The notes below the pieces were generated by a model. That model was not told the origin of the DNA, made no database searches, and worked only from the letters and a program-made list of their open reading frames with translations. The position numbers and the translations under genes are program-made. Below, piece by piece: positions 3,642 through 30,103 of a stretch of DNA of 30,225 nt (the stretch's first letter is position 1; each line of letters starts with the position of its first letter). Source of the stretch: Zoogloeaceae bacterium (GTDB taxonomy: Bacteria > Pseudomonadota > Gammaproteobacteria > Burkholderiales > Rhodocyclaceae); assembly GCA_031273145.1 (NCBI GenBank), contig JAISSL010000032.1, positions 1 to 30,225 on the forward strand. Direction: 5' to 3'.

Positions 3642-3793
3642 CGCGGCGGGCAAAAATGTGAAGAAACAGCTTCATATTTTGCCGAATCTGGAATGTTTTG
3701 GGAAACCCCAAAAACGCCCCGGTTTGTAACGAAAAAGTCCCTGAATCTGTGTTTTAGAGGGGTTTCGATTCAGATAGGCACATTTTACGCTGG

Positions 3794-3857
3794 TTTGCCC
3801 TCTCCCGCCCCTTCGGGGCACCCTCTCCCACAAGTGGGAGAGGGGATGCTCAGTGCC
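3794..3857 (+). repeat. 64-bp CTCTCCC palindromic element, copy 1
   Basis: This block contains two hairpins: GCCCCTTCGGGGC, and CCTCTCCCAC paired with GTGGGAGAGG. A copy of exactly the same length, differing at only a few bases and with compensating changes in the stems, lies at 8897-8960 in the same orientation. The rest of 3642-3888 shows no gene. Confidence 0.85.
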
Positions 3858-3888
3858 GCCCGCATCGTTTGCTCGGCATCCTTTTTCC

Positions 3889-5151
3889 CTAATGCCGTGT
3901 ATCAGGAGCGCCGATTCCTGGCGGGTGGATAACAAAAATCCCGCTTTCCGGCGGTTGTCTCGGTTCAGGCAATTCAGAGTGGCGATCCTCGGACGATTCA
4001 AGCGGCTCAAGCGGTTTAAGGGGTTCCCGCAGTTTAAGCGGTTTGTGCGGTTCAGTCGGTTCCGACGGTTGTCGCGCAATCCAGCGCAGCACTTTTACTT
4101 CTGCCTTGAGCCGCGAAACCTCATGCATGAGCCTCGCGATTTCTTTATCATGCGCCGCATATTTTTCCTCAAGCGCCATGATTCTTGCTGTAAGAGCCTC
4201 GTTGTCCATGATGATCTGTCCGTTAAGCGTATCTGCGGTATCCAGAAGCCGCTTTGTATCCTGATGCGCTTTTTGTGTTACTTCAAGGTCATGCACAGCC
4301 TTGTCGCGTTGCGCGATTGCGGCCTGCTTTTCCGTTTCCAACGCGGTTTTCTCCTTTAGCGCGGCGTTCAGTTCGGCAAGCGCGTTGCCGGCGGACTGCA
4401 TCCGATCCCGCAACTTGGCGCTCAGTTCATCTACTTCCGCCTTTTTCGCCCGGTAGGCTTCCACAACCCGGTTATGTTTTATGACCACGGTGTTGTGCTT
4501 CGCTACCATGGAGCGATAGCCCTCTGCCGCCGCTTCCGCCAGGTTGCGCTGTTTGTTCAGGGCTGTTTCAAGCTCGGCGCGTTCCTTTATGGCATCCGCT
4601 TTTTCCTTACGCGCCCTTGATAACGCCGCTTCATACTGGCTGATGGCTTCCATTGCGCCCACCAGTTCATCCTTACGCCCGCTCATGACATCCACGGCAT
4701 CCGCAAGTTTCTTCCGCACCTCGCCTAGTTCCTGCTCCAGCATTGCGCGATCCGCCGCCGCTTCGATGCGTTGCTTCTCCGCGTCGCCTTCCAGAGTCTT
4801 GTTTCTGGCTTCCAGGCGTTCACACTCCAGGCGAAGCTCAATTTCCTGGGTTTCCAGAGCCTTGCATTTTTCTACCGATGCGTCGAACTCCAGGCGAAGT
4901 TCGCTCACCCTGCCTTCCAGGCGGATACGTTCGCCTTCCGAAAAATCATACTCCCGGCTAAGTTCATCCGTAGACCAAAGAGGGTTTGCATACCTACGCG
5001 CTACTACCGGGCTGGCGCTTCCCAGCGGGACGACCGGCGCCAGTTTACCCGCCCCCTCGGCAGAGCTGGAGGCGGACTGTGTTACTTCCGACCCGGTTAC
5101 AGGCTCTGGTTTATCCGCATTTTCTGCGGAGTCTGGTTCCGCATAACCCAT
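3889..5151 (-). CDS. Long coiled-coil protein with a Pro/Glu tripeptide-repeat tail
   Basis: This 420-residue protein has no signal peptide or membrane segment and I do not recognise a family. Residues 1-60 are low-complexity (Ala/Ser/Pro/Glu). From about 65 to 345 the sequence is a nearly continuous coiled coil, rich in Glu, Lys, Ala and Leu, with an SMC- or tropomyosin-like look but no ATPase motif. The tail from about 350 is a run of three-residue units such as EPL, KPL and EPT encoded by a 9-bp tandem repeat. The ATG at 5151 has GAGG at the right distance and a good promoter upstream. A structural or scaffolding role is possible, but the function is unknown. Local similarity to SMC or kinesin-like proteins would be compositional. 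Confidence 0.7.
   Translation of the reverse strand: MGYAEPDSAENADKPEPVTGSEVTQSASSSAEGAGKLAPVVPLGSASPVVARRYANPLWSTDELSREYDFSEGERIRLEGRVSELRLEFDASVEKCKALETQEIELRLECERLEARNKTLEGDAEKQRIEAAADRAMLEQELGEVRKKLADAVDVMSGRKDELVGAMEAISQYEAALSRARKEKADAIKERAELETALNKQRNLAEAAAEGYRSMVAKHNTVVIKHNRVVEAYRAKKAEVDELSAKLRDRMQSAGNALAELNAALKEKTALETEKQAAIAQRDKAVHDLEVTQKAHQDTKRLLDTADTLNGQIIMDNEALTARIMALEEKYAAHDKEIARLMHEVSRLKAEVKVLRWIARQPSEPTEPHKPLKLREPLKPLEPLESSEDRHSELPEPRQPPESGIFVIHPPGIGAPDTRH
3994..4074. repeat. 9-bp minisatellite within the coiled-coil gene
   Basis: Nine successive 9-base units of the type CGGTTCAAG are seen on the plus strand, with two or three more degenerate units at 3952-3978. They code on the minus strand for the Pro/Glu/Leu/Lys tripeptide tail. 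The unit is a multiple of three, so copy-number change keeps the frame. Confidence 0.8.
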
Positions 5152-5932: not shown

Positions 5933-7051
5933 CTATCGCGCCAATAGCCGCCTGGGATATAACAGGCCGTCCGCCTTGACCTCTCCCACGCCCAATAATT
6001 CCCTTTCCCCGGCATACACCCGGATTTTTGTCCCCGGCTCGCCCGCTTTATCCACGCGCACAGGATTGCCGCAGCCAAAACGCGCACTCATCCCTTCGTC
6101 CAGAAAAACAGCCGACAGGGAACGAAGCAGATAATCTACCGGCAATAAGGCATCCATAAGCGCCCCATCTGCCGCCAACTGTTCCAGTTCCGGCAAGGAA
6201 CGCGCCCCGGTCAGGGTCAAATCCCCAACCGCAATCCGGCGAAGCCCCGCAAGGTGCGCGCCACATCCCAACGCTTCGCCGATATCTTCCGCCAAAACGC
6301 GAATGTACGTCCCCTTGCTGCAACACACTTCCACTTCCAGCCAGGGCGTATCGTCCGCCAAAGCCTGTGGCGGGACGCAGGTTGCGTCCCCTACAGAATT
6401 TTCCATGCGAGGCGCTATTGAATTGTCCGTAGGGGCGGCAATTTGCCGCCCGTATCCTGGCGCAAAATTTCCGGGCGAGGGGAGATTCAATACCCTCTCC
6501 TCTAACCCCTTTGTTGGATACTTGATTCCCGCCTGCGCGGGAATGACGTTGAGCAGTTCCAGGCGATGAATCCGTATCTGCCGCGCTTCCCGTTCTACCG
6601 TGACGCCCTGCCGCGCCAGTTCATACAACGGCCTGCCTTCCCGCTTCAGGGCGGAATACATCGGCGGAACCTGCGTCATTTCGCCCGTAAAGGCCGCCAA
6701 CACTTCCTGTACCCGTGCCGCATCACAACAAACCGGGCGAATTTCCAGCACCGCGCCTTCCGCATCGCCCGTCGTGGTCGTCATGCCCAGACGCACCCTG
6801 GCGCGATAGGTTTTGTCGGCATCCAGCAAATCGGCGGAAAACTTGGTCGCCTCCCCCAGACAAACCGGCAAAAGGCCACTCGCCAAGGGGTCGAGCGTGC
6901 CGGTATGGCCTGCCTTTTCCGCCTGAAAAAGCGCGCGCGCCCGTTGCAACGCCGCATTGGAAGACATCCCTTCCGGCTTGTCCAGCAGGAGTACGCCATC
7001 CACCTTGCGCCGGATACGGCGCGGCTGCGGGGATGCCTTTTCAGATGGCAT
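5933..7051 (-). CDS. truB: tRNA pseudouridine-55 synthase TruB with repeat-derived insertion
   Basis: TruB converts U55 of the tRNA T-loop to pseudouridine and acts as a tRNA chaperone. The first 167 residues match the family: VDGVLLLDKPEGMSS (17-31), the catalytic GHTGTLDPLASGLLP (48-62, nucleophile Asp54) and Y82RARVRLG. The family motif CSKGTYIRVLAEDIGE then appears at about 244-259 and LGCGAHLAGLRR at 261-272. Between the strand IHRLELL (161-167) and the strand LEVEV (about 238-242), where relatives have a short turn, lie about 62 extra residues (168-229), encoded by intergenic-type palindromic repeats. The total of 372 residues exceeds the usual 300-320. The ATG at 7051 overlaps the upstream ABC gene by 11 bases and has GGAAG before it, so translation is probably coupled. 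The frame has no stop or frameshift, so the protein is probably made. Confidence 0.95.
   Translation of the reverse strand: MPSEKASPQPRRIRRKVDGVLLLDKPEGMSSNAALQRARALFQAEKAGHTGTLDPLASGLLPVCLGEATKFSADLLDADKTYRARVRLGMTTTTGDAEGAVLEIRPVCCDAARVQEVLAAFTGEMTQVPPMYSALKREGRPLYELARQGVTVEREARQIRIHRLELLNVIPAQAGIKYPTKGLEERVLNLPSPGNFAPGYGRQIAAPTDNSIAPRMENSVGDATCVPPQALADDTPWLEVEVCCSKGTYIRVLAEDIGEALGCGAHLAGLRRIAVGDLTLTGARSLPELEQLAADGALMDALLPVDYLLRSLSAVFLDEGMSARFGCGNPVRVDKAGEPGTKIRVYAGERELLGVGEVKADGLLYPRRLLAR
6365..6550 (-). repeat. In-frame palindromic repeat insertion inside truB
   Basis: About 186 bp (62 codons) interrupt the turn between two TruB beta strands. In truB orientation the insert contains the IPAQAGI palindrome, a linker, a GGGCGGCAAATTGCCGCCC hairpin followed by CCTACGGACAATTCA, and finally a GGGACGCAACCTGCGTCCC hairpin. 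The last two parts are the same composite as at 601-707. The insert length is a multiple of three and no stop occurs in the truB frame. Confidence 0.85.
6524..6547 (-). repeat. IPAQAGI-type palindrome
   Basis: GATTCCCGC and GCGGGAATGAC form an imperfect palindrome. In the truB frame it reads VIPAQAGI, a peptide that commonly appears when this widespread proteobacterial intergenic palindrome falls in an open frame. Confidence 0.85.
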
Positions 7052-8849
7052 CTTCCATCCCTTCCCGCCGTTCCGACCGTTGCCGTTCCCACATCCGCGC
7101 ATAGAGGCCGCCCTGCCGCAAAAGCGCGTCATGCCGTCCGCGCTCGACAATCCGCCCGCCTTCCATGACCAGAATCTCATCTGCGTTCATTACGGTGGAG
7201 AGACGATGCGCGATGACCAGCGTGGTGCGTCCCCGCGCCGCCGCTTCAAGCTGCTTTTGGATTGCCCATTCGGTATGGGAATCCAGCGCCGAAGTCGCCT
7301 CGTCGAAAATCAGGATGGCCGGATTTTTCAACAACGCGCGGGCAATCGCTACCCGTTGTTTTTCCCCGCCGGAAAGTTTGAGGCCGCGCTCGCCTACCCG
7401 TGTTTCCCAACCTTCCGGCAAACTTTCGACAAACCCGGCAAGCTGCGCGGCGCGGGCGGCAGCCAGCACGGCTTCCCGGCTTGCCTCTGGATGGCCATAG
7501 TGGATGTTGTAATACAGGGTATCGTTGAAAAGCACGGTATCCTGCGGCACGATGCCAATCAACGCGCGTAAACTTTCCTGGGTAAAGGCGCGAATATCCC
7601 GACCATTGCAGGTAATCGCGCCGCCCGTCACTTCGTAAAAGCGGAAGATGAGCCGCGCCAGCGTGGATTTGCCCACGCCGGAAGTCCCCACGACCGCAAC
7701 CGTATGTCCGGCAGGGATGACGAAATCCACGCCGCGCAGAACGGGACGCGCCGGGTCATAGGCAAAATGCACATCCTTAAAGCGCACTTCCTGCGCCCCG
7801 GCGGGCATTACCGCCGCGTCCGGGCGGTCGGAGACTTCCTGATGGGTTGAGAGCAACTCGAACATCCGCCCGATGTCCGTCATTGCCTGGCGCAGCTCGC
7901 GGTAAATCACGCCCAGAAAATTGAGCGGCAGATAAAGCTGCATCAAAAACGCATTGACCAGCACCAAATCCCCCACGCTCATTTCCCCGTCCGCTACGCC
8001 CCGCGCCGTCAGCCACATCATCAGGGTCACGCCGACGGCTACAATCAACTGCTGTCCCAGATTGAGGTAGGAGAGCGACACTTGGCTTTTCGTCGCCGCC
8101 TCAGCCCAGTTGCCCAGACGCTCGTCGTAAGCGCGCGCCTCAAACGCCTCATTGCTGAAATACTTGACCGTTTCGTAATTCAGGATGCTGTCAATGGCGC
8201 GGCTGTTCGCGGCAGAATCCGTCTCATTGACCCGGCGACGAATCTCAATCCGCCAGTTGCTCACCAGTACCGTAAAGCATCCATAGACCAGCAGGGAAAA
8301 AAACGTGACCAACGCGAAAATCGGCGGGAACTCCCGCCACAGAATCACCAGCACCAGAGTCATTTCCACCAGCGTGGGCAGGATGGAATAGAGGGTGTAG
8401 TTAATCAGGGTCGCGATTGCGTGAGTGCCCCGCTCGATGTCGCGCGACATCCCGCCAGTCTGCCGTTCCAGATGAAAGCGTAAGGAAAGCGCGTGCAGAT
8501 GGCAGAACACTTCCAGAGCCAGACGACGGATGGATTGCTGCGTTACCCGCGCAAAGATGATTTCGCGCAGTTCCGTAAAAAGCGAGGCGGCAAACCGCAA
8601 AACGCCATATAAACACAGCAACGTCAGCGGAAAGGTGAGGGCCAGACGCGCCGGGTCGAGGTCATCTACAATCTGGCGAAATGCCAGGGGCGCCGCGACG
8701 GCTGCCAGCTTCGCGCCAATCAGGCAGAGGAGCGCCAACGCTACCCGCAGCCGGTATTGCCACAGATAAGGCCAGAGCCGCCACAAGGTAGGCGCGATCC
8801 CGGAAGAGGGCATCGGCAGGGACGAGGAAGCAGAAGAAAAATGCTGCAT
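7041..8849 (-). CDS. Atm1/HMT-type ABC exporter (fused permease and ATPase)
   Basis: This 602-residue half-transporter works as an inner-membrane homodimer. Residues 25-320 form the six-helix exporter domain. It carries TGGMSRDIERG (131-141) and the NYETVKYFSNE segment (224-234), both typical of the Atm1/HMT1 branch, which exports glutathione-linked metal or sulfur species. The nucleotide-binding domain has Walker A GTSGVGKST (388-396), Q-loop VPQD (434-437), signature LSGGE (492-496), Walker B ILIFDE (512-517) and the H-loop His (548). The start is the ATG at 8849; its ribosome binding site is weak. The stop overlaps the truB start. An MsbA-like lipid flippase is less likely because of the two Atm1 motifs. 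Confidence 0.93.
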   Translation of the reverse strand: MQHFSSASSSLPMPSSGIAPTLWRLWPYLWQYRLRVALALLCLIGAKLAAVAAPLAFRQIVDDLDPARLALTFPLTLLCLYGVLRFAASLFTELREIIFARVTQQSIRRLALEVFCHLHALSLRFHLERQTGGMSRDIERGTHAIATLINYTLYSILPTLVEMTLVLVILWREFPPIFALVTFFSLLVYGCFTVLVSNWRIEIRRRVNETDSAANSRAIDSILNYETVKYFSNEAFEARAYDERLGNWAEAATKSQVSLSYLNLGQQLIVAVGVTLMMWLTARGVADGEMSVGDLVLVNAFLMQLYLPLNFLGVIYRELRQAMTDIGRMFELLSTHQEVSDRPDAAVMPAGAQEVRFKDVHFAYDPARPVLRGVDFVIPAGHTVAVVGTSGVGKSTLARLIFRFYEVTGGAITCNGRDIRAFTQESLRALIGIVPQDTVLFNDTLYYNIHYGHPEASREAVLAAARAAQLAGFVESLPEGWETRVGERGLKLSGGEKQRVAIARALLKNPAILIFDEATSALDSHTEWAIQKQLEAAARGRTTLVIAHRLSTVMNADEILVMEGGRIVERGRHDALLRQGGLYARMWERQRSERREGMEDAI

Positions 8850-8896
8850 CAGAGCTTTTTCTGTTTAGGGCAATTTCTGTTTGATTCTGCACATGG

Positions 8897-8960
8897 TTTG
8901 CCCTCTCCCGGCGCTTCGCGCCACCCTCTCCCATAAATGGGAGAGGGGATGTTCAGTGCC
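8897..8960 (+). repeat. 64-bp CTCTCCC palindromic element, copy 2
   Basis: Same length and layout as 3794-3857. Here the first hairpin is GGCGCTTCGCGCC instead of GCCCCTTCGGGGC, with both arms changed so that pairing is kept. The element lies upstream of the ABC gene in the 251-base gap 8850-9100, which otherwise holds only repeats. Confidence 0.85.
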
Positions 8961-8968
8961 ATATCTCC

Positions 8969-8990
8969 CCTCTCCCGCTTGCGGGAGAGG
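8969..8990. repeat. CCTCTCCCGC-TT-GCGGGAGAGG hairpin
   Basis: A perfect 10-bp inverted repeat with a 2-base centre, followed by a G-rich stretch (8990-9007). A shorter version of the same hairpin occurs at 13522-13541. Confidence 0.8.
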
Positions 8991-9047
8991 GGGCGGGGGA
9001 GAGGGGTTCTGCGGACGCAGATTGCGCCTGGGCAATTTTTTAAAAAA

Positions 9048-9083
9048 CATTGCCGTCCGCAGGACACGCAACCTGCGTCCCGC
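9048..9083. repeat. Hybrid of two repeat families near the nitroreductase stop
   Basis: The left part (ATTGCCGTCCGCAGGAC) belongs to the stop-codon-associated family. The right part (ACGCAACCTGCGTCCCGC) is one arm of the composite element of 601-707. It lies 17 bases beyond the nitroreductase stop. Confidence 0.7.
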
Positions 9084-9100
9084 CCAATTCACGCAAGACC

Positions 9101-9688
9101 TCACGCAAACGTGCACACCGTCTCGAACGGTAGTCTGGGACCGCGCGGATAAAGCGTTTCCGCCACGCCGTAGCCCAGATTGCAGAGCAGACGCGCGTTA
9201 TAGCGCCCGTCCGGGAAAAAGGCCGCATTGACCGCCGCCGCGTCGAAGCCGGTCATGGGGCCGCAATCAAGACCCAGAGCGCGCGCGGCAAGAATCAGAT
9301 AGGCAGATTGCATGTCCGTATTCTGGCTTGCGGTATGCGCTGCCATTGCCGGATTGCCCGCAAACATGGGCTTGGCGTCATAGGCAGGAAATTGCGCGGT
9401 GATGTGGTCGTAGAATTGTTTATCTTCCGCCACGATGACCGTTACCGGCGCGGCCAGGGTTTTTTTCACGTTGCCGGCCATGAGGCAGGGTTTTAGTTTT
9501 TCCTTGCCGGCCTTCTCCCGCACAAAGACCAGCCGCGCCGGTTGAGCGTTCATCCCGGTCGGCGCCCATTTCCATATATCGAAAAGCTGGCGCAGAACTG
9601 CTTCCGGGACGGCCTCTGGCCGAAAATCGCTAAACGTGCGCGCATTGGTGAAAAGCTGCGCGATACTTTCTGACGCAAGGGATGCCAT
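9101..9688 (-). CDS. rutE: RutE/HadB-type nitroreductase family protein (malonic semialdehyde reductase-like)
   Basis: This 195-residue FMN-dependent oxidoreductase aligns end to end with E. coli RutE (196 residues), which reduces malonic semialdehyde in pyrimidine degradation. Matching landmarks are LFTNARTFSDFR (12-23), KWAPTGMNAQPARLVFVR (39-56), LKPCLMAGNVKKTLAAPVTVIVA, MQSAYLILAARALGLDCGPMTGFD, LLCNLGYG and LPRLPFE near the end. The ATG at 9688 has GGAG 8 bases upstream and gives exactly the family length; a longer frame to 9799 has no support. No other rut genes are near, so the true substrate may be another aldehyde, quinone or nitro compound. It appears to be a single-gene unit; the 153 bases upstream contain nothing recognisable. 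Confidence 0.88.
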   Translation of the reverse strand: MASLASESIAQLFTNARTFSDFRPEAVPEAVLRQLFDIWKWAPTGMNAQPARLVFVREKAGKEKLKPCLMAGNVKKTLAAPVTVIVAEDKQFYDHITAQFPAYDAKPMFAGNPAMAAHTASQNTDMQSAYLILAARALGLDCGPMTGFDAAAVNAAFFPDGRYNARLLCNLGYGVAETLYPRGPRLPFETVCTFA

Positions 9689-9841: not shown

Positions 9842-10942
9842 TTATCGGGCTTTTTTCTGCTCTTCGCAGATTTGTTCAGCGGTCTTTTTCGGCCAGGTGA
9901 TCTCGCCTTGAGCATTCTTCAGGACTTCAAAGCCGCATATTTTTTCAATGTACACAACAATTTCGCCCTTCACATTGATGTAGCCCCATTTATCGTTTTC
10001 CTTGACCTGCGCCAAGCCATTGGCAGAAAAATACCAAGTCCAGTCAAACTTCGGCGAAATGACCAACTCGTCCTTGGCGTTGACATACCCGTATTTTCCG
10101 TTTTCCTTGAACGGAGCCAAGGCATTTGGATTTACGGTGAAATATAATTTTCGTTCAAATTCAACATCTTCCTTATCAAGCGTTGGTGGAATCACCCACT
10201 CGCCTTGTTGGACATTGAAGTAACCAAGTTTGTTATTTTCCCAGATTGCTGCAACGCCATTGATAAAAATCCCATCGCTCGCACCAAACCTTGGCGAAAC
10301 GACCCATTTACCCTTATCGTTGATGTAACCCCATTTTCCGTTTTCCCAGGCCGCAGCCAAACCATTGCGGTTAAAAGGTTCAGCCGCTTCAAACCTCGGT
10401 GAAATGACCCATTTGCCCTCAGCATTGATGTAGCCCACTTTCCCGCCTTCTTTTTCTTGTACCCACGCCAAACCATTGGCGGAAAAACTACCACCCCAAT
10501 CAAACTTAGGCGGAATGACCCACTGACCCTTGGCATTGATGTATCCAAATTTCCCACCTTGCCTGACCAGAGCCAAACCGTTGTCGGTAAAGTACCCTAT
10601 CTTGTCATCTTCCTCACCGACACCCTCAAACTTTGGCGGAATCACCCATTCGCCTTTGGCGTTGATGTACCCATATTTTTCATTTTCTTCTTCTTGAACC
10701 CATGCCAAGCCATTGGCGGAAAAAGTATCTGCCTTCACAAACCTCGGCGGAATGACCATCTTACCTTGAGTGTTGATATAACCGCACTTTCCATTCAGAC
10801 ATATCAGGGCAAGATTCTTCGCCGCGCTGCCCGTTTCTGCCGCCATTGCAGGCAGGCTGGAAACCAGAAGTACCGCCCCAATTGCCAGCACAACCGCTAT
10901 CACTCTGGCGAATCTGGTTTGCCGCATGATGTCCTGGTTCAT
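9842..10942 (-). CDS. Exported WG-repeat protein
   Basis: This 366-residue protein starts with a signal peptide or anchor (residues about 10-35, ending LPAMAAE). It then carries eight tandem WG/KWG repeats of about 35-47 residues, each reading roughly NGLAxVxExxKxGYINxKGxWVIPPKF. The tail (about 335-366) is Lys/Glu-rich with two Cys. WG repeats are thought to form beta-propeller-like or elongated binding folds, and their function is not established. The ATG at 10942 has AGGAG 8 bases upstream; a GTG at 10960 is less likely. It lies 18 bases after the HTH regulator gene and is probably co-transcribed with it. The repeats are well conserved in DNA too, which suggests recent expansion. Confidence 0.85.
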   Translation of the reverse strand: MNQDIMRQTRFARVIAVVLAIGAVLLVSSLPAMAAETGSAAKNLALICLNGKCGYINTQGKMVIPPRFVKADTFSANGLAWVQEEENEKYGYINAKGEWVIPPKFEGVGEEDDKIGYFTDNGLALVRQGGKFGYINAKGQWVIPPKFDWGGSFSANGLAWVQEKEGGKVGYINAEGKWVISPRFEAAEPFNRNGLAAAWENGKWGYINDKGKWVVSPRFGASDGIFINGVAAIWENNKLGYFNVQQGEWVIPPTLDKEDVEFERKLYFTVNPNALAPFKENGKYGYVNAKDELVISPKFDWTWYFSANGLAQVKENDKWGYINVKGEIVVYIEKICGFEVLKNAQGEITWPKKTAEQICEEQKKAR

Positions 10943-10960
10943 CGTCTTCTCCTGTGCCAC

Positions 10961-18010: not shown

Positions 18011-20416
18011 GTGGCTTACAACGAAGCAGAAACCCGCTTTTATCTGATTGACCCGCTCTTGCGCGAGAAGGGGTACGATGATCCTTTGCGGATAAAGCTG
18101 GAAACGCCTGCGCCGGTGGAGCCGATCGGTTTCAAGGGACGCCGCCGCAAGGGCGCGGGGCGTACCGATTATCTGTTGTGCGTGCAGGCGGGCGAGATGC
18201 CCAGGCCGTTGCCGGTTGCGGTGCTGGAAGCCAAGAAAGAAAGCGAAGACCCGTTGAAGGGGATGCAGCAGGCCAAGAGTTATGCCGATTGCCAGCGTTT
18301 TGACGTGTGCTATGTTTTTGCCACCAATGGTCGTTTGTATGTTGATTACGACAAGTTGAGCGGCTTGCAGACGGAGCCGCTTCCGTTGGCGGATTTTCCG
18401 CCGCATTCTGATTTGTGCGCCCGTTATGCCAAAGACAAGGGTATAGACCTGAACCGTCCCGAAGCCGCCTTGCTGTTTCAGGCCGATAGTCCGGCGTGGG
18501 CGCAACCCCGTTATTATCAGGATGCCGCGATTCGCGCCGCTTTTGAGAAAATCATTCTTGAGCGGCAGGCGGGTCATGCGCCGCGCGTGTTGCTTTCGCT
18601 TGCCACGGGCGCGGGCAAAACGATTATCGCCACGAATCTGCTGTGGCGGCTGGAACGGGCGGAGCAACTCTCCAAGCCTGCGCTGTTTCTGTGTGACCGG
18701 GATGAATTGCGCGAGCAGGCTTACAGCAAGCTCAAGGCCGCTTTTGGCGGCGATGCCCGCATCGTGCAGACTGAGCGCGGGCAGAACGCCGCCAAAAATG
18801 CCCGCATTCACATTGCCACCTATCAGACGTTGGGCATTGATGAGGCGGGCGACGCCAGTTTTTTGAGCGAACATTACGGCGAAGATGCCTTTTCCGTCAT
18901 CATCATTGATGAATGCCATCGTTCCGCCTGGGGCAAGTGGTCGGAAGTCCTGAGGCGCAACCCCAACGCGATTCACATTGGCTTAACCGCAACGCCGCGC
19001 AAGTTGAAGGAATCCAAAAACTTAAGCGAGGAAGCGCAGGACGATCTTGCGATTACCGCAAGCAACGTCAGGTATTTCGGCGAACCTGTCTATGAGTATT
19101 CGCTACCGCAAGCGCAGGAAGATGGTTATCTGGCGGCCTGTGCAATCGTCAAGCGCAAGGCCAGCATTGATGACCGGGTTTTTACCCGCGAGGAAATCCT
19201 GCAAGCCAGGGTGAAGGACATCAAGACGGGTCGTCTGCTTACGGAAGAAGATTTGCCCAAGGACAAATATACCGGCAAGGATTTTGATGATGAGCTGTTC
19301 ATCGAACTGCGTACTCCGGCCATGTGCGAAGACCTCTTTTTATTGCTGTGCGAAAACGGCGGGCCGGAGCAGAAGGTTATCGTTTTTTGTACCCGCGAAC
19401 TTCATGCCGACCGCGTGGCGGCGAAGCTGAACAACCTCTATGCGGAGTGGTGCAGGAAAAACGGAAAACCCCGCAAGGACGATTACGCTTTCAAGTGCAT
19501 GGGCGGGGCGAACAACGGCGCGGACAAGATTGAAATCATGCGCGGCAGTGGTGAACGCGCCTTCATTGCCTGTACTGTTGATCTGCTGGAAGCGGGCGTG
19601 GACATCGAATGCCTGAACGCGGTGGTATTTTTTCGCTACCTGCAATCGCCGATCAAGTTTTACCAGATGGTCGGGCGCGGAGCGCGCATTCACGAAGAGA
19701 CGCAGAAATATAAATTCTGGCTGTACGACTACACCGGCGTCACTGACCTGTTTGGCGCGGAGTTTATTACCAATCCGCCGCGCTCAGGCGGAGGCGAACC
19801 CGCCCCAGACCCCGAACCCAACCCCGACCCCGAACCGCCCGATGGTCCCGCCGTGCCGGTGATCGGCGGGCAGCGCGTGATCGTGACTGGAGAGGGGCGT
19901 TTTATTCTTGGCAGCCGCGAGGGTAAATCCGCGCTTATTCCCATAGACGAATACCGGCGTGAAGTGATGCAGCGGGTGCTTGCCGAAGCGTATGACTTTG
20001 GCGAATTTCGCGCCCTGTGGATTGAAACGCAAAAGCGCCGCCAGTTGATTGACCATCTGATTGGCGATCACTACGTGCCGGAACTGGTGCGGAATGCGGA
20101 ACAGATGGACGAGTTTGATTTGTTTGACGTGTTCGGCAAATACGGCTACAACGCTCGCGCCCTGAAGCGGATGGAACGCGGCGCGGAATACGCGCGCGTC
20201 AATGGCGGGTGGTTTGCGGACATGGATGCCAAAGCCGCCATTGTGCTGAAAGGCTTGGGCGCGCAGTTCGCGCAGGGCGGCACAGACGCCCTGGAAACGT
20301 CCGCTCTGTGGGCAGTGCCGGAAATCGCGCAGGCGGGCGGGTTGAACGCGCTGCGTCCGCTTGGCGAACCGGGACAGGTTATGCGGGAGGCAAAAGTGAG
20401 GTTGTTTGGGGTATGA
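18011..20416 (+). CDS. hsdR: Type I restriction endonuclease subunit R (HsdR)
   Basis: HsdR is the motor and nuclease subunit that translocates and cuts DNA lacking the cognate methylation. The 801-residue protein has an N-terminal PD-(D/E)xK nuclease with Asp53 (GRTDYLL) and Glu73-Ala-Lys75 (VLEAKKE). A superfamily 2 helicase motor follows: Walker A ATGAGKT (198-204), DECH (300-303), GLTATP (about 324-329) and QMVGRGAR (motif VI, about 553-560). A Pro/Asp/Glu-rich linker (about 595-615, many PDPEP units) joins the motor to the C-terminal helical domain that docks on the methylase. It resembles the EcoEI branch. The start is GTG at 18011 with GGGAT before it. The TGA overlaps the hsdS ATG by four bases (ATGA). 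Confidence 0.95.
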   Translation: MAYNEAETRFYLIDPLLREKGYDDPLRIKLETPAPVEPIGFKGRRRKGAGRTDYLLCVQAGEMPRPLPVAVLEAKKESEDPLKGMQQAKSYADCQRFDVCYVFATNGRLYVDYDKLSGLQTEPLPLADFPPHSDLCARYAKDKGIDLNRPEAALLFQADSPAWAQPRYYQDAAIRAAFEKIILERQAGHAPRVLLSLATGAGKTIIATNLLWRLERAEQLSKPALFLCDRDELREQAYSKLKAAFGGDARIVQTERGQNAAKNARIHIATYQTLGIDEAGDASFLSEHYGEDAFSVIIIDECHRSAWGKWSEVLRRNPNAIHIGLTATPRKLKESKNLSEEAQDDLAITASNVRYFGEPVYEYSLPQAQEDGYLAACAIVKRKASIDDRVFTREEILQARVKDIKTGRLLTEEDLPKDKYTGKDFDDELFIELRTPAMCEDLFLLLCENGGPEQKVIVFCTRELHADRVAAKLNNLYAEWCRKNGKPRKDDYAFKCMGGANNGADKIEIMRGSGERAFIACTVDLLEAGVDIECLNAVVFFRYLQSPIKFYQMVGRGARIHEETQKYKFWLYDYTGVTDLFGAEFITNPPRSGGGEPAPDPEPNPDPEPPDGPAVPVIGGQRVIVTGEGRFILGSREGKSALIPIDEYRREVMQRVLAEAYDFGEFRALWIETQKRRQLIDHLIGDHYVPELVRNAEQMDEFDLFDVFGKYGYNARALKRMERGAEYARVNGGWFADMDAKAAIVLKGLGAQFAQGGTDALETSALWAVPEIAQAGGLNALRPLGEPGQVMREAKVRLFGV

Positions 20417-21624
20417 AACTTTGTGAAGTCGCCGATATTGTTGCGGGTTTCGCTTTCCCGGAAGTTCATCAAGGGCGGGATAACTTGCCTACGCCTTTTA
20501 TTAAAGTAAGCGATTTTGCGAGAGCACAGGAATCTTACATTTTCAGTGCGGTCAATACGGTGGATGATGGGTTATTAAAGCTGATGCGTGCTAAACCCTA
20601 CCCGCCTGGCACTGTCATTTTTCCGAAGGTTGGCGGGGCATTGCTGACGAATAAACGCGCTCGCCTTGGTGTTAGTGCTACTTTCGATAACAATGTGATG
20701 GGACTGATTCCGCGCACGATAGATGGTGACTATCTATATTGGTTCATGTGTCAGTTCGATATGGCACAACTTGCCAATACGCAAGCACTACCCTCTGTCC
20801 GGGCAAGCGACGTTGCACAAATCGAGATTCCGGTTCCATCGCTGTGTCAACAACGTCAAATCGCCGCCCGTCTAAAGGCGCAACTGGCTGAAGTGGAGAC
20901 TGCGCGGCAGGCGGCAGAGGCGCAGGTGCGGGAAGCCGACCTGTTGCGCCGCCGCGTGTTGCAAACCAGCGTGGATAATACTGGTGGTGAAGGCGAGTCC
21001 GCTTGGGGTATGAGTAACTTCGTTCGTCTTGGTGACTGCACTACCAAGATTGGCAGTGGTCAAACGCCGCTTGGTGGCTATCGAGCCTATACCGATAATG
21101 GCATTCCGCTTATCCGAAGCCAAAACGTCCTGATGGGTAGCTTTACTACGGAAGGTCTGGCGAACATTCCCACACAAATTGACGAAGAGATGCGTGGTTC
21201 GAGAGTCGCACGACATGATGTTCTGTTGAATATAACGGGCGCATCCATCGGGCGTGTTTGTGTTGTGCCGGACGACATTTGTCCTGCCAACGTAAACCAA
21301 CATGTTTGCATCATTCGATGCGGCGAGAAGTTGCATCCTGACTATGTGATGCTAGTGCTTTCCAGCCCTAGTTTTCAATCATTGATTTGGCGAGACCAAG
21401 CCGGAGCAACGCGACAGGCGCTGACAAAAGATATGATTGAAAATTTCCGAATTCCTTGGGTATCACTACCTAAACAACGCCAAATCGCCGCCCGCCTGAA
21501 AGCGCAACTCGCCGAAGCAGACACTCTACGCGCCGCGCTCTCTGAACAGCGGCGCGAACTGGACGCGCTGCCGCAACGTATCCTCGCCCAAGCCTTCGAC
21601 ATCAAGGGAGTTGCATCGTCATGA
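20413..21624 (+). CDS. hsdS: Type I RM specificity subunit (HsdS)
   Basis: HsdS sets the DNA target of the whole complex. The 403-residue protein has two target-recognition domains (about 1-140 and about 200-350). Each is followed by the conserved helical repeat QRQIAARLKAQLAE, once at about 146-159 and again at about 355-368, which spaces the two half-sites. The first domain begins MKLCEVADIVAGFAF and ends IEIPVPSLCQ; the second has RLGDCTTKIGSGQTPLGG and ends FRIPWVSLPK, the usual pattern. The ATG at 20413 is inside the hsdR stop, so translation is coupled. The specificity cannot be read from sequence alone. The two central repeats are also similar in DNA and could support domain exchange. 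Confidence 0.95.
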   Translation: MKLCEVADIVAGFAFPEVHQGRDNLPTPFIKVSDFARAQESYIFSAVNTVDDGLLKLMRAKPYPPGTVIFPKVGGALLTNKRARLGVSATFDNNVMGLIPRTIDGDYLYWFMCQFDMAQLANTQALPSVRASDVAQIEIPVPSLCQQRQIAARLKAQLAEVETARQAAEAQVREADLLRRRVLQTSVDNTGGEGESAWGMSNFVRLGDCTTKIGSGQTPLGGYRAYTDNGIPLIRSQNVLMGSFTTEGLANIPTQIDEEMRGSRVARHDVLLNITGASIGRVCVVPDDICPANVNQHVCIIRCGEKLHPDYVMLVLSSPSFQSLIWRDQAGATRQALTKDMIENFRIPWVSLPKQRQIAARLKAQLAEADTLRAALSEQRRELDALPQRILAQAFDIKGVASS

Positions 21625-21721
21625 CCGAAAAACACATCCGCAAACAGCCCGTGAGCGACCATTTTGGTAACGTCACCAAAATGGTCGACATTGGCTCTGG
21701 CGCGAAATACCGACGGTTTTT
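21621..21721 (+). pseudogene. dinD: dinD remnant truncated by a repeat element
   Basis: The frame starts at an ATG overlapping the hsdS stop (ATGA). After eight unrelated residues it reads QPVSDHFGNVTKMVDIGSGAK, which matches the internal segment of DinD (DNA-damage-inducible protein D) that reads roughly SGxxxxDHFxxVxxMVxIGSGAKR. DinD genes are common passengers in type I RM loci. Only about 22 of roughly 275 codons remain. Eleven bases later the AGCCCCC element begins, and the frame continues into it only as repeat-encoded residues up to 21905. The N-terminal 50 or so residues are missing as well, so both ends were lost. Confidence 0.65.
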
Positions 21722-21850
21722 AGCCCCCTTTTTAAAGGGGGTGCCCCGACAGGGGCGGGGGTTTGTGGGCGGCGGATTGACAAACCGGAGACGCTTTCAT
21801 CCCCCGGCAAACCCCCGGCGCTACGCGCCACCCCCTTTGAAAAGGGGGCT
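21722..21850. repeat. 129-bp MITE-like element with AGCCCCCTTT terminal inverted repeats, copy 2
   Basis: The element begins AGCCCCCTTTTTAAAGGGGG and ends CCCCCTTTGAAAAGGGGGCT, with GCCCCGACAGGGGC and GGCGCTACGCGCC hairpins inside and GGGGGTTTG facing CAAACCCCC. It matches the element at 13546-13665 in layout and terminal sequence. It separates the dinD remnant from hsdM. A GCGGC-TTC-GCCGC hairpin follows at 21858-21870, just before the hsdM start. Confidence 0.8.
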
Positions 21851-21889
21851 TGAAGTGGCGGCTTCGCCGCTTGAAAAAAGAGCAAAACT

Positions 21890-23821
21890 ATGCCACACGC
21901 CATGAAAAATTCTGCCCAAAAACCGCCCAAGGCCATTGCCTCTACCCAATCGCTGTCGGCCTTCGTCAAGAGCATCTGCGATGTGATGCGGCGTTCCAAT
22001 TGCGCCAGCGCCTTGCAGTACGTGCCGGAACTGACGTGGATTCTGTTCCTGCGTATCCTGGACGCGCAGGAAACCCGCGAGGAAGAAGAAGCTAAAGCCG
22101 TAGGCGCGCCATTCCAGCCCGCGCTGCACTCGCCCTATCGCTGGCAGGATTGGGCCGCGCCGTGGTCGGACAAACCTCATCATCCACAAACGCCGGAAGG
22201 CAACCCGCAAGGCTGGATGCGGCAAAAACTCCGCGCCGCCGGGATTGGCAGGCTGTTCGACTTCATCAATCAGGAATTGCTGCCCTACCTGCACGCGCTC
22301 GATGTCAATCCGCGCACAGGTCTGGCAAACCCGACCGCCAGCCCGAAACAACGCATCATCGGTCGCATCATGACCGCTGTAGAGCGCGTCCGCGTAGACG
22401 ACGAGGCCAACCTGCTCGACATCCTCGACCGCGTGCACGAAATCAGCATTGACCACATTGACGACACGCATTTTTTCACCCTGTCGCAGGTGTACGAGGA
22501 TTTGCTGCTGAAAATGGGCGAAAAGAATTCCGATGGCGGCCAGTTTTTCACCCCGCGCGAAGTGATTCGCGCAATGGTGCATACGGTCAATCCATCGCTG
22601 GGACAGACGATCTACGACCCCTGCTGCGGCACTGGCGGTTTTCTGGCAGTCGCCTATGAACACATTGCGCGTAAGCTGGGCAACGCGCCAGTCGCCACCG
22701 ACATTGACAAACTCAAGCACGATACCTTTTTCGGGCGGGAAAAGGAAAATCTGGTGTTCCCCATCGCGCTGGCAAACCTGGTGCTGCACGGCATTGACCA
22801 GCCTAATCTATGGCACGGCAATTCCCTGACCCGCCGCGCCACTTACAGCGCATTATTCGAGGGCGCGCCCCGTCAGTTCGACGTGATTCTGACCAATCCG
22901 CCCTTTGGCGGCAAGGAAGGCCGGGACGCGCAAAAGAATTTCGCCTTCGAGACCAGCGCCACGCAAGTGTTGTTCGTACAGAACATTCTTTCCGAACTGG
23001 CATTTGGCGGCACTTGCGCCATCGTGCTGGATGAAGGGCTATTGTTTCGCGCCAACGAGACCGCCTTTGTCGAAACCAAGCGCAAACTCCTGGATGAGTG
23101 CGACCTGTGGACGATCATCAGTCTGCCGGGCGGCGTGTTCTCCACGGCAGGCGCGGGCGTAAAAACCAATCTGCTCTTTTTCACCAAAGGCCAAAAGACC
23201 GAGCGCATCTGGTATTACGATCTGTCATGGATCAAAGTGGGCAAGAAAACGCCGCTGACGCTGGCGCATTTCGGTTTTGACAGGGATGGCGCAGTGTTGG
23301 GCGACGCTGCCTTGCCCGCCGCATTGTTGGCTGAATGGCAAAACGACGAAGCCAATGCGGGGCAGCCGTTCCCAAGCTATGCGCGTCTCCTGCCCCAACG
23401 CGGTACGCGAGAAGGCGAAAGCCGTTATTCGTGGACGATAGATTTCGCCGCGCGTCGCGCCAAAGCGCGCGAAGAGATGCAACCCTTGCTGGATAAGGCA
23501 GCAAGCATCAGGGCGACAGTCGTCGACCTGAAAGAAGACCTCAAACGGTTAAAAAGGGACAATGCGCCAGAAGACAGGCTCGACGCGCAGGAGGCCAACA
23601 TCCGCGCCCAGGAAAAAGCCGCGCGTGATCTGGACATGGAAGCCGCCGCCATTGACGCAGCCGTATTCGACCTGAAGGCGGTCAACCCGAATGCGGTAAC
23701 TACGACGGATGAACGCGCCCCGGCACAAATCATCGCCAGCATCCACGCGCAGGGACAAATCATAACGCAGGCGCTGGAACGGTTAAGCGCATTACTGGCG
23801 GAAACGCCAGAGCAGGGGTAA
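21890..23821 (+). CDS. hsdM: Type I RM modification methyltransferase (HsdM)
   Basis: HsdM is the N6-adenine methyltransferase of the type I complex (two copies with one HsdS). The 643-residue protein has the N-terminal helical domain (about 20-215) with LRILDAQETREEEE, the conserved GGQFFTPREVIRAMV (216-230), SAM-binding motif I DPCCGTGGF (243-251) and catalytic motif IV NPPF (336-339). Residues about 525-590 form a C-terminal coiled coil that contacts HsdS. The ATG at 21890 is chosen; a second in-frame ATG at 21902 is possible and neither has a strong ribosome binding site. It is 265 bases from hsdS because the dinD remnant and the repeat intervene, so coupling to hsdS is lost. Confidence 0.95.
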   Translation: MPHAMKNSAQKPPKAIASTQSLSAFVKSICDVMRRSNCASALQYVPELTWILFLRILDAQETREEEEAKAVGAPFQPALHSPYRWQDWAAPWSDKPHHPQTPEGNPQGWMRQKLRAAGIGRLFDFINQELLPYLHALDVNPRTGLANPTASPKQRIIGRIMTAVERVRVDDEANLLDILDRVHEISIDHIDDTHFFTLSQVYEDLLLKMGEKNSDGGQFFTPREVIRAMVHTVNPSLGQTIYDPCCGTGGFLAVAYEHIARKLGNAPVATDIDKLKHDTFFGREKENLVFPIALANLVLHGIDQPNLWHGNSLTRRATYSALFEGAPRQFDVILTNPPFGGKEGRDAQKNFAFETSATQVLFVQNILSELAFGGTCAIVLDEGLLFRANETAFVETKRKLLDECDLWTIISLPGGVFSTAGAGVKTNLLFFTKGQKTERIWYYDLSWIKVGKKTPLTLAHFGFDRDGAVLGDAALPAALLAEWQNDEANAGQPFPSYARLLPQRGTREGESRYSWTIDFAARRAKAREEMQPLLDKAASIRATVVDLKEDLKRLKRDNAPEDRLDAQEANIRAQEKAARDLDMEAAAIDAAVFDLKAVNPNAVTTTDERAPAQIIASIHAQGQIITQALERLSALLAETPEQG

Positions 23822-28100: not shown

Positions 28101-28343
28101 CGTTTCAGGCCGATCATCATGACTTCGCTTGCCTTCACCCTGGGCGTATATCCGCTCTTCAAGGCGACCGGCGCGGGCGCGGCGGCGCGGCGTTCGATGG
28201 GAACCGGCGTCTTCGGCGGGATGCTGGCCGCAACCTTCATTGCCATTATCTTTGTCCCGCTCTTTTTCAAATGGTTCGAGCGCGGCAAGGCGGTCTTGCC
28301 GACCGGGCACAAGAGTCATGCTGTAAAGGGAACTGCGCCATGA
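25158..28343 (+). CDS. RND multidrug efflux pump, HAE1 family (AcrB/MexB-like)
   Basis: This 1061-residue trimeric inner-membrane pump expels hydrophobic drugs by proton antiport. It starts with the family N-terminus MFSKFFIDRPIFA, and has PVAQYPHISPPTI (32-44) and YPGASAETL near the first periplasmic loop. The proton-relay pair Asp408-Asp409 lies in GIVVDDAIIVLENVER, and Lys952 in GLASKNAILIVEF; these correspond to Asp407/Asp408/Lys940 of AcrB. Twelve membrane helices and two large periplasmic loops are present. Compared with AcrB there is a small extra segment around residues 630-660 (GLIGKLFGKEKQPPMPAM). AAGGAG precedes the ATG at 25158. The stop overlaps the next start (ATGA). The substrate range cannot be predicted from the sequence. 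Confidence 0.96.
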   Translation: MFSKFFIDRPIFASVISIVIVIAGLVAFRVLPVAQYPHISPPTIMVVTAYPGASAETLAKTVAAPIEEQLNGLEGLAYFTSSATADGSINITVTFEVGTDPDMALVNVNNRVKIAEPRLPEDVRRYGVTVLKRSADILKLFAILSSKGHSRLFLSNYASINIVDELKRVPGVGDVMVFGAQDYSMRIWLRPDRMAQLKITTVEIAAAIREQNSQNAAGKIGQEPALDDQVLMYTVNAKGRLLTPEEFGNIVLRAEGPGGVLRVKDVARVELGANSYSARSLSAGQDVVGMGIFLQTGANALKVSQAVEEKMVELKEKFPEGMDYFVPFDTTKFISASIDAVQETLIEAGVLVLLVIFIFLQSWRATLIPMIAVPISLIGTFAGLWLFGFSINTLTLFAMVLAIGIVVDDAIIVLENVERLMTEDKMSPYAAAVEAMSEVSGALVAIVMVLCAVFIPVAFLGGIAGQLYKQFAVTVAVAVALSGTVALTLSPALCAILLKNKHEEHRFFAPFNRLFERFTQSYTSTVGYVLRHGIIGVVVFALVIGACVFFLRSVHSSFVPQEDQGMLLSALILPDGATLKRTVDVGQQMSAQVDRHPAVNRTMMVAGFDMIGGSKGTMFIDLKDWKDREGTGFFMGLIGKLFGKEKQPPMPAMALVGQFSGMGQRMGDGMALVFNPPAIMGLGSVGGFEAAIQNRADGDPIKLAAVIQEFMAAISKRPEFQCPTCRVTTSIRANVPQLFIEVDEPKAISLGLSLSDVYLTLQANMGALYVNDFNMGSKVYKVQLQAEGEYRMKPEDLGKVYVKSRSGAMIPVSAFSAIKRIIAPEVVERFNGFTAAKVMGETRAGVSSGDVIRMVEETAEQILPEGYSLAWMGSAYQEKSSAGSSVDAFAFALVMVFLILAALYEKWSLPVAVLMAVPFALMGALTAVWLRGMPNDIYFQIGLVVLIGLASKNAILIVEFAVQRFAEGMTVVDAAIEAARLRFRPIIMTSLAFTLGVYPLFKATGAGAAARRSMGTGVFGGMLAATFIAIIFVPLFFKWFERGKAVLPTGHKSHAVKGTAP

Positions 28344-30103
28344 ACAAGTTAATTTTCCCGGCTCTTGCCGTTGTCCTTGTGGTTTCAGGTTGCGCGGTAG
28401 GCCCTGATTATCGCCGCCCGGAAGTTGCGTTGCCGGAAGAGTATAACGCCTTCCAGCCGGAAGCTGCCGCCGGGGAAGAGCACGTAAACCCGGAATGGTG
28501 GCGGCTTTTTGGCGACGCCGAACTTGACCGTCTGGTTGAATTGACCTTTGCCAACAATCAGGACCTGGTTGCCGCTTCCGCCCGGATGGAAGCGGCTGAA
28601 GCGGCGGCGCGGGAGGCAAGGGCGGGTTATTTTCCCGGCGTGGATGCTTCCGGCTCTGCCAGTCGTACCCGCACCAGCGGCGCGACGCTTAGTGGAATGC
28701 AGACCGGCTCCGTCATTGTGCCCGACCGTCAGGCGGCGCTTTCGGTGGGCTATGAACTCGACATTTGGGGACGCATCCGGCGGCAGAATGAGGCGGCGCG
28801 CGCTCAGGCGCTTTCCAGCCGCTATGCCCGCGACGCGCTGAGAATTTCGCTGGCCGGGATGGTCACGTCGGACTATCTGACCTTGCGGATGCTGGATGCG
28901 GAGCTGGATGCCGCGATGGATACCCTGGCAAGCTGGCTGAAGACGGAACGGATCATGCGGGCGCGGTTTGATGCGGGTTTGTCGGCGGAGATAGACCTGA
29001 AACAGACGATTGCCGCGTATGCCGCCGCGCACGCGCAATGGGTGGAATTGAAGCGCCAGCGCGATTTGATGGAAAACCGGCTGGGACTCCTTGCGGGGCA
29101 GCCCGGTCTGATGATTGCGCGTTCGCTGGAGCGCGGGATGCAACGTAACCGGGAAATCTTTCAGAGGATTCCATCGCCGCCCATTCCGCCGTTGGGTTTG
29201 CCTTCCTCGTTGCTGGAAGCAAGGCCGGATGTGCGACAGGCCGAGGAAGCTCTGGTTGCGGCCAATGCTCAAATCGGCGTTGCCAGAGCCGCCTATTTTC
29301 CGACGATAGGCTTGACCGGCCTTTTGGGTAGCGAGAGCGCCGAGTTTTCCGATCTGTTTACCGCGCCTGCGCGCATCTGGTCTTATGGCGCGGCGCTTAC
29401 CATGCCGATTTTCAATGCGGGGCGTACCGGCGCGCGGGTGGATCAGGCGAGCGCCCATCAGCGGGAGGCGCTTGCCAATTACCGCAAGAGCATACAAACC
29501 GCCTTTACCGAGGTGCGGGACGCGCTTGCCAATCTGAACTATTACCGGAGGGTGGTGGAATCTCTGGAAATTCAGGTCAATGCGGCGCGCGATACCGAAC
29601 GGCTGGCGATGGCGCGTTACGAGGAGGGTTACAGCAGCTTTCTGGAACCGCTGGATAGTCGCCGGACGCTTTCAAATGCCGAGCTTTCCTACCTGACCGC
29701 GCATCGTAACCGTCTGGCGGCTACGGTGGATTTGTTCAAGGCGCTGGGAGGCGGCTGGCAGAAGAATCCCCAAAAGGCGCATCGAAAAGAAGTAGCGAAA
29801 GAAGAGCCGACGGATACGGAAGAATCCGGGGAAGAAGAGCCGAATGAGGCGGCATCGAATGAGGCAGAGCCAAATGAAGCAGAACCCAATGAAGCGGAGC
29901 CGGATGCGGTAACGTCAAATGAGGCGGAGCCGAATGAGGTTGCGCCAAACGAGGCTGAACCCAATGTGGCAGAGCCAAATGAGGTAGAACCGAATGAGGC
30001 GGAACCGTATGAGATAACGCCGTATGAGGTGATGCCGGATAGGGTAGCGCCGTATGGGGAAGAAGCGCTCCAGCTTGAGCTGATTGGCGGCTTGGGGGAC
30101 TGA
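28340..30103 (+). CDS. RND outer-membrane factor lipoprotein (NodT/OprM type) with pentapeptide-repeat tail
   Basis: This 587-residue protein is the outer-membrane channel of the efflux complex. The signal peptide ends in the lipobox VVSGC (Cys17), and CAVGPDYRRPE is the classic start of OprM/NodT proteins. Two structural repeats follow: NPEWWRLFGDAELDRLVELTFANNQDL in the first and RPDVRQAEEALVAANAQIGVARAAYFPTIGLTG in the second. The family normally stops soon after the ALGGGW motif (here at about 469-473). This protein runs on for about 115 residues: a Lys/Glu-rich linker, then fifteen EPNEA-like pentapeptides (500-574) and a short end. The ATG lies inside the pump stop and has AAGGGA upstream. 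The tail would face the periplasm. Its role is unknown. Confidence 0.93.
   Translation: MNKLIFPALAVVLVVSGCAVGPDYRRPEVALPEEYNAFQPEAAAGEEHVNPEWWRLFGDAELDRLVELTFANNQDLVAASARMEAAEAAAREARAGYFPGVDASGSASRTRTSGATLSGMQTGSVIVPDRQAALSVGYELDIWGRIRRQNEAARAQALSSRYARDALRISLAGMVTSDYLTLRMLDAELDAAMDTLASWLKTERIMRARFDAGLSAEIDLKQTIAAYAAAHAQWVELKRQRDLMENRLGLLAGQPGLMIARSLERGMQRNREIFQRIPSPPIPPLGLPSSLLEARPDVRQAEEALVAANAQIGVARAAYFPTIGLTGLLGSESAEFSDLFTAPARIWSYGAALTMPIFNAGRTGARVDQASAHQREALANYRKSIQTAFTEVRDALANLNYYRRVVESLEIQVNAARDTERLAMARYEEGYSSFLEPLDSRRTLSNAELSYLTAHRNRLAATVDLFKALGGGWQKNPQKAHRKEVAKEEPTDTEESGEEEPNEAASNEAEPNEAEPNEAEPDAVTSNEAEPNEVAPNEAEPNVAEPNEVEPNEAEPYEITPYEVMPDRVAPYGEEALQLELIGGLGD
29837..30061 (+). repeat. 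15-bp minisatellite (15 units) encoding EPNEA-type pentapeptides
   Basis: Fifteen in-frame units of 15 bases (typified by GAGCCGAATGAGGCG) code for units such as EPNEA, ASNEA, EPNEV, APNEA, EPYEI and TPYEV. Early units are nearly identical; later ones drift. The array is very acidic. Confidence 0.9.

Follow-up and report, generated by a model that had tools for sequence, protein, structure and literature searches.

How does dispersed palindromic DNA come to lie, in frame, inside the gene for a conserved tRNA-modifying enzyme? The question is raised by truB, encoding tRNA pseudouridine(55) synthase, on a 30,225-nucleotide stretch of DNA from a Zoogloeaceae bacterium of the family Rhodocyclaceae (contig JAISSL010000032.1 of assembly GCA_031273145.1), hereafter referred to as the window. 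A first-pass annotation of the window had suggested that part of this gene derives from inserted repeats, and our results bear this out: 62 codons interrupt truB without a stop codon, and the corresponding site is empty in all 55 of the 59 related genomes that have a truB match. We consider it highly probable (roughly 0.87) that this insert is a tolerated passenger composed of dispersed palindromes of the repetitive extragenic palindromic (REP) class, probably acquired in at least two insertion steps.

The window protein matches the Pfam families TruB_N, TruB_C_2, and TruB-C_2, all above their cut-offs, and scores 241.8 bits against TIGR00431, for which the equivalog cut-off is 151.45. In all three printed alignments to PDB entries, the insert separates two matched halves. 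The conserved TruB motifs GHTGTLDP and KGTYIR, whose residues we take to have a catalytic role, are present, and across 75 aligned TruB sequences, G48-P55, Y82, K246, G247, Y249, and R251 are invariant and T248 is nearly so. The gene sits outside the nusA-infB-rbfA neighborhood that we assume to be the usual setting of truB, and its start lies within the 3' end of a same-strand ABC transporter gene (7041-8849; ABC_membrane and ABC_tran). The description of TruB as an essential-class enzyme in the first-pass annotation does not hold for E. coli, in which, according to PMC12503941, truB is dispensable under optimal growth, but the deletion strain is outcompeted.

On the coding strand, the insert consists of a CGTC-tagged hairpin, a spacer, and two GTAG-tagged hairpins with their tags facing each other (Table 1). 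A survey that divides bacterial REPs into a GTAG and a CGTC superfamily (PMC3733652) describes CGTC-1 elements as having an unpaired CGTC tag, an 8-bp stem starting with A-T, a 4-nt loop, and a tail that is mostly CCA, and GTAG elements as multicopy sequences with an unpaired GTAG tag, a stem of 5-13 bp, and a loop of 2-20 nt, often forming dimers 20-100 bp apart. The truB CGTC hairpin agrees with the former in its tag (6548-6545), which is unpaired and stands immediately before the stem, in a stem that begins A-T, in its loop, and in its multiple copies, and the tail of the truB copy, the single copy scored, is CAA, one base off CCA. The GTAG hairpins agree with the superfamily in tag, 8-bp stems, 3-nt loops, and occurrence as a multicopy dimer, forming a tail-to-tail pair with tags 34 nt apart. 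The chance expectation for GGGACGCAGGTTGCGTCCC, GGGCGGCAATTTGCCGCCC, and ATTCCCGCCTGCGCGGGAATGACG is 0.00-0.04 per window (dinucleotide shuffles, at most 3 mismatches), and the five perfect tagged hairpins in the window all fall within two composite elements, the insert and an intergenic one, compared with 0-3 hairpins in 20 mononucleotide shuffles. The intergenic element at 601-707 had been regarded as the same composite as that in truB, which was partly correct: its GTAG pair (606-705) is of the same kind, with 54 nt between tags, but neither an adjoining CGTC hairpin nor the 68-nt spacer is part of it. There was no match to Rfam within the window at gathering thresholds.

Table 1. Positions of truB, its insert, and related repeat elements in the window.
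Feature	Position	Strand	Basis
truB, tRNA pseudouridine(55) synthase, 372 aa, with 62-codon insert	5933-7051	minus	Pfam, TIGR00431, and PDB alignments
In-frame insert, residues 168-229, 62 codons	6365-6550	minus	coding frame and empty site in relatives
CGTC-tagged REP; tag CGTC, 8-bp stem ATTCCCGC/GCGGGAAT, 4-nt loop GCAG; encodes VIPAQAGI	6525-6548	minus	hairpin scan and folding
Spacer, 68 nt, imperfect hairpin, essentially unique in host	6453-6520		folding and genome search
GTAG-tagged REP; 8-bp stem GGGCGGCA/TGCCGCCC, loop ATT	6429-6451	plus	hairpin scan and copy alignment
GTAG-tagged REP; 8-bp stem GGGACGCA/TGCGTCCC, loop ACC; partner of 6429-6451	6372-6394	minus	hairpin scan and copy alignment
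GTAG-tagged REP of intergenic pair	606-628	minus	hairpin scan
GTAG-tagged REP, partner of 606-628	683-705	plus	hairpin scan
Partial, degenerate stem of same GTAG-type REP	9063-9084	minus	motif search

The insert has at least 76 matches in the host assembly (1.98 Mb in 294 contigs, 86% complete), with scores obtained for 40 of 163 first-look candidates; most lie on the GTAG pair or the CGTC hairpin, and many on query positions 158-196, the CGTC part. In 23 aligned copies of the GTAG pair, the two stems are nearly invariant and the intervening sequence is variable. The spacer has only two 30-nt matches elsewhere in the host (E ~0.01). Among the matches listed for the 11 other genomes of the same genus, the CGTC part is found in five (G001, G012, G014, G017, and G018) and the GTAG pair in none. 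One contig of G017 (C6) carries a dense cluster of eleven CGTC-type copies in ~2 kb (L202:13-2055), partly evenly spaced.

A search of 60 genomes, the host included, yielded a truB match in 55 of the 59 relatives (none in G008, G011, G040, and G041), and in each of these 55 the halves of the gene adjoin, with distances read by eye, rather than being separated by a homologous, non-repetitive segment. A wider set comprised 109 truB loci in addition to that of the window itself (L031), and in 87 of these the segment is, by visual count, exactly 22 residues long; the order-wide truB survey, covering part of the matches, N-terminal ones, was left out of the insert counts. P0003 (336 aa), from the protein database, is identical to the window TruB (P0001) at 262/309 positions outside the insert, and its site is empty. 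P0002 (357 aa), a different protein encoded on another contig (ENA source), is identical at 299/309 positions outside the insert and bears an insert at the same site. The two inserts share the part NVIPA.AGI..PTKGL.ERV.NL.SPG, followed by different sequence, and 21 of the first 27 insert residues are identical; the insert thus changes more quickly than the enzyme. Such a half-shared insert fits growth in steps, as far as the two protein sequences allow this to be read. Region searches with each insert for further proteins returned only P0001 and P0002.

A structural model is in keeping with the first-pass suggestion that the insert occupies a surface loop. AlphaFold2 returns a confident TruB fold in which residues 175-230, located in a beta-hairpin turn, have very low confidence, and the insert is accordingly predicted to be a disordered loop at the tip of a beta-hairpin of the catalytic domain, the disorder resting on the model. 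According to PMC3767692, segments encoded by Rickettsia palindromic elements (RPEs) are solvent-exposed.

The same turn is interrupted elsewhere by an unrelated repeat. Four of the 109 other truB loci (L062-L065), from Gallionella-type bacteria, carry a different in-frame sequence in this turn, by eye a few residues further on than the position of the window insert; that of L065 is longer and contains further sequence. With a 121-base query from L063, the numbers of matches per genome, counting that in truB, were 30, 16, 27, and 27, which makes this insert, too, a dispersed repeat. In a genus-level search around L063, in which 58 of 61 genomes had any match, some without a whole truB, the insert is carried by five of the 61 (G435, G436, G437, G438, and G454). 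On a quick tree of 57 TruBs with the insert columns removed, its distribution requires 4 changes, of which well-supported branches force at least 3; shuffled labels gave a mean of 4.9 changes, with 56 of 500 shuffles as low as 4, so presence is hardly clustered on the truB tree. The inserts of L062, L064, and L175 are identical pairwise at 82/84 positions, compared with 68-81% for third positions in the flanks, and that of L063 is identical to these three at 73-74/84, compared with 70-71% at third positions. Because insert identity is far above that of the flanking third positions, the insert seems, judging from these sequences, to have arrived after truB diverged in at least three lineages, by repeated insertion or short-tract transfer, an old insert with subsequent losses being the less likely history. 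GAACTC flanks the insert on both sides in L062 and L064 and is possibly a target-site duplication. The Gallionella-type insert (L062-L065 and L175) thus resembles that of the window in being a dispersed repeat in frame in the same TruB beta-hairpin turn, but differs in its sequence and slightly shifted site, and neither strand of the four printed 84-nt inserts shows, by eye, a GTAG or CGTC tag.

For the window gene, we propose that the CGTC block was inserted first and that the remainder was added later, differently in the two lineages represented by P0001 and P0002. Since the frame is intact, truB should encode TruB with ~60 extra residues, and the insert would have survived as a tolerated passenger for three reasons: additional residues can be accommodated in the turn, these elements are free of stops in many frames, and selection maintains an open truB while leaving the peptide to drift. 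The elements may have been moved by a transposase of the RAYT (REP-associated tyrosine transposase) type, acting in trans or since lost; this is the published hypothesis for movement of GTAG REPs (PMC3733652), with an association that is common but not obligatory. Several observations weigh against the passenger account. The Y1 transposase family PF01797 has no match in the host genome at the completeness given above, and is present in 7 of 20 genomes of the genus, the host among the 20; moreover, a scan for tagged hairpins in 8 of the 15 PF01797 loci fetched found none in 7 and, in the eighth (L164), a single, seemingly unrelated CGTC hairpin. No target-site duplication is evident at the window insert, and the order of steps rests on two sequences compared as proteins. 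In addition, only 2 of the 75 aligned sequences have residues in the insert, and the low predicted local distance difference test (pLDDT) values there may partly reflect this sparse coverage.

Other explanations have to be weighed against a tolerated passenger. The insert could be functional, either altering TruB, for instance in tRNA binding or chaperone activity, or tuning expression through hairpins in the mRNA. It folds well as RNA (z-score -4.25, and -3.83 as DNA), another kind of dispersed repeat occupies this TruB turn in a second bacterial group, and several pseudouridine synthase genes contain REPs according to PMC3733652. We nevertheless regard a function as improbable, as the peptide part common to P0001 and P0002 is less conserved than the rest of the enzyme, the second half is unlike between the two, the region is predicted to be disordered, and there is no counterpart in the 55 relatives with a match or in most of the 109 other truB loci.

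It may also be asked whether the insert is simply an artefact of joining contigs at a repeat, given the fragmented host assembly and the dispersed nature of the elements. This is very unlikely: one frame joins both halves of truB, the spacer is essentially unique, and P0002, on another contig, carries a related insert at this site, which speaks against misassembly. That a long loop is ancestral in TruB, its likeness to repeats being coincidental, has next to nothing to recommend it beyond three TruBs of uncultured Burkholderiales (L088, L090, and L096) with 56-70 residues in the same segment, and is already contradicted by the copy number in the host and by the empty sites, with the halves nearly adjacent in relatives and 22 residues the prevailing length among the other loci.

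A tolerated passenger in the window and the Gallionella-type insert together pose a testable question, namely whether certain protein turns attract such insertions. It is possible, if rather doubtful, that the TruB turn immediately preceding CSKGTYIR acts as a landing pad where unrelated dispersed palindromic repeats settle repeatedly; such repeats would enter in frame, grow by further insertions, and, in the case of the Gallionella-type repeat, have reached several lineages after divergence through repeated insertion or short-tract transfer. If this is true, TruB might serve as a measure of the conversion of selfish repeats into protein, and the idea would become strong if the published truB REPs sit in the same turn. 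Whether the added peptide is neutral for an enzyme that both chaperones and modifies tRNA is a further question that can be tested.

REPs within truB have precedents: PMC3733652 names truB of S. maltophilia, E. litoralis, and S. alaskensis, along with RPE-1 in truB of R. conorii; the same paper describes REP clusters inside genes of Thauera and R. conorii that encode 43-82 residues. The window insert is like these published cases in its superfamilies, as defined by tag, stem, loop, and dimer layout, in being intragenic, and in the gene concerned, but unlike them in combining both superfamilies in one insert and in having a relative with a partly different version. In a family sample around L101, a Lysobacteraceae bacterium, 145 of 149 genomes gave a truB match, always as a single unsplit hit exceeding the query span by ~8 residues at most, by eye, and none showed a large interior insertion; this neither supports nor contradicts the published REP in S. 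maltophilia truB. The likeness to Rickettsia palindromic elements drawn in the first-pass annotation stands, since in both cases palindromes lie in the reading frame of conserved protein-coding genes, among them truB, and PMC3733652 places RPE-6 of R. conorii and Neisseria dRS3 in CGTC-1, with RPE-4 also among the CGTC REPs. This likeness is one of behavior, and the insert is not classed as an RPE; RPE-1 itself is, according to PMC3733652, another and longer kind of element. Neisseria dRS3 shares with the window CGTC hairpin an 8-bp stem beginning AT, a 4-nt loop, and interleaving with other repeats, the comparison being of layout rather than alignment, but the window hairpin differs in adjoining a GTAG REP pair and lying inside a gene. 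By title and abstract, the literature searched contains no report of this truB insert or of the growth of such an insert in truB, Gallionella not being among the search terms. New here are the two-superfamily composite, the half-shared insert of P0002, and the independent Gallionella-type insert in the same turn, and the window truB adds a clear case outside Rickettsia of selfish palindromic DNA becoming protein sequence, with both empty-site and half-shared relatives.

The broader suggestion that these elements spread into coding DNA and are tolerated in surface loops fits the truB turn, but such spread looks rare in the host. We fetched 45 loci around element matches, some overlapping, and the ten longest stop-to-stop open reading frames (ORFs) of at least 120 aa containing the element besides truB, omitting the L009 duplicate of an L153 ORF, were scanned with Pfam. 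No supported intragenic copy besides truB was found in these loci, genes broken by the element and shorter ORFs being beyond the reach of the scan; four of the ten ORFs have domains (M16 peptidase, two Sel1, and NusB), always uninterrupted and with the element ahead, and six have none. In L007, the element lies just past a gene that we take to resemble kdsB. Likewise, 20 stretches from G012, which has 70 matches, and 18 from G017, which has 48, representing part of all matches, contain 79 CGTC copies in 38 loci and, among ten ORFs scanned with Pfam, no supported intragenic copy, although genes broken by the element would escape such a scan; three of these ORFs contain domains (UvrB-like in L210, ParB_N in L216 and L217), which the element precedes, and seven have none.

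Several other features of the window merit mention. Peptides such as LSHKWERG and LSHLWERVPRRGG, encoded by ORFs at 8881-9231 and 3672-4079, suggest another family of dispersed hairpin repeats. At the contig edge, a gene for a TylF/Methyltransf_24-type methyltransferase has a pentanucleotide array (GGAAG x 11.6, 7-64) immediately ahead of its start codon (64); the array could be a phase-variation tract. A protein of WG repeats, with six matched stretches, is encoded at 9842-10960, and a cassette resembling a type I restriction-modification system at 18011-23821 comprises a ResIII/helicase protein, a specificity subunit (Methylase_S), and an N6 methylase with HsdM_N. Finally, 15-bp and 75-bp tandem repeats at 29836-30013 encode the C-terminal PNEAEPNEAE tail of a protein (28271-30103) that presumably resembles an outer-membrane factor.
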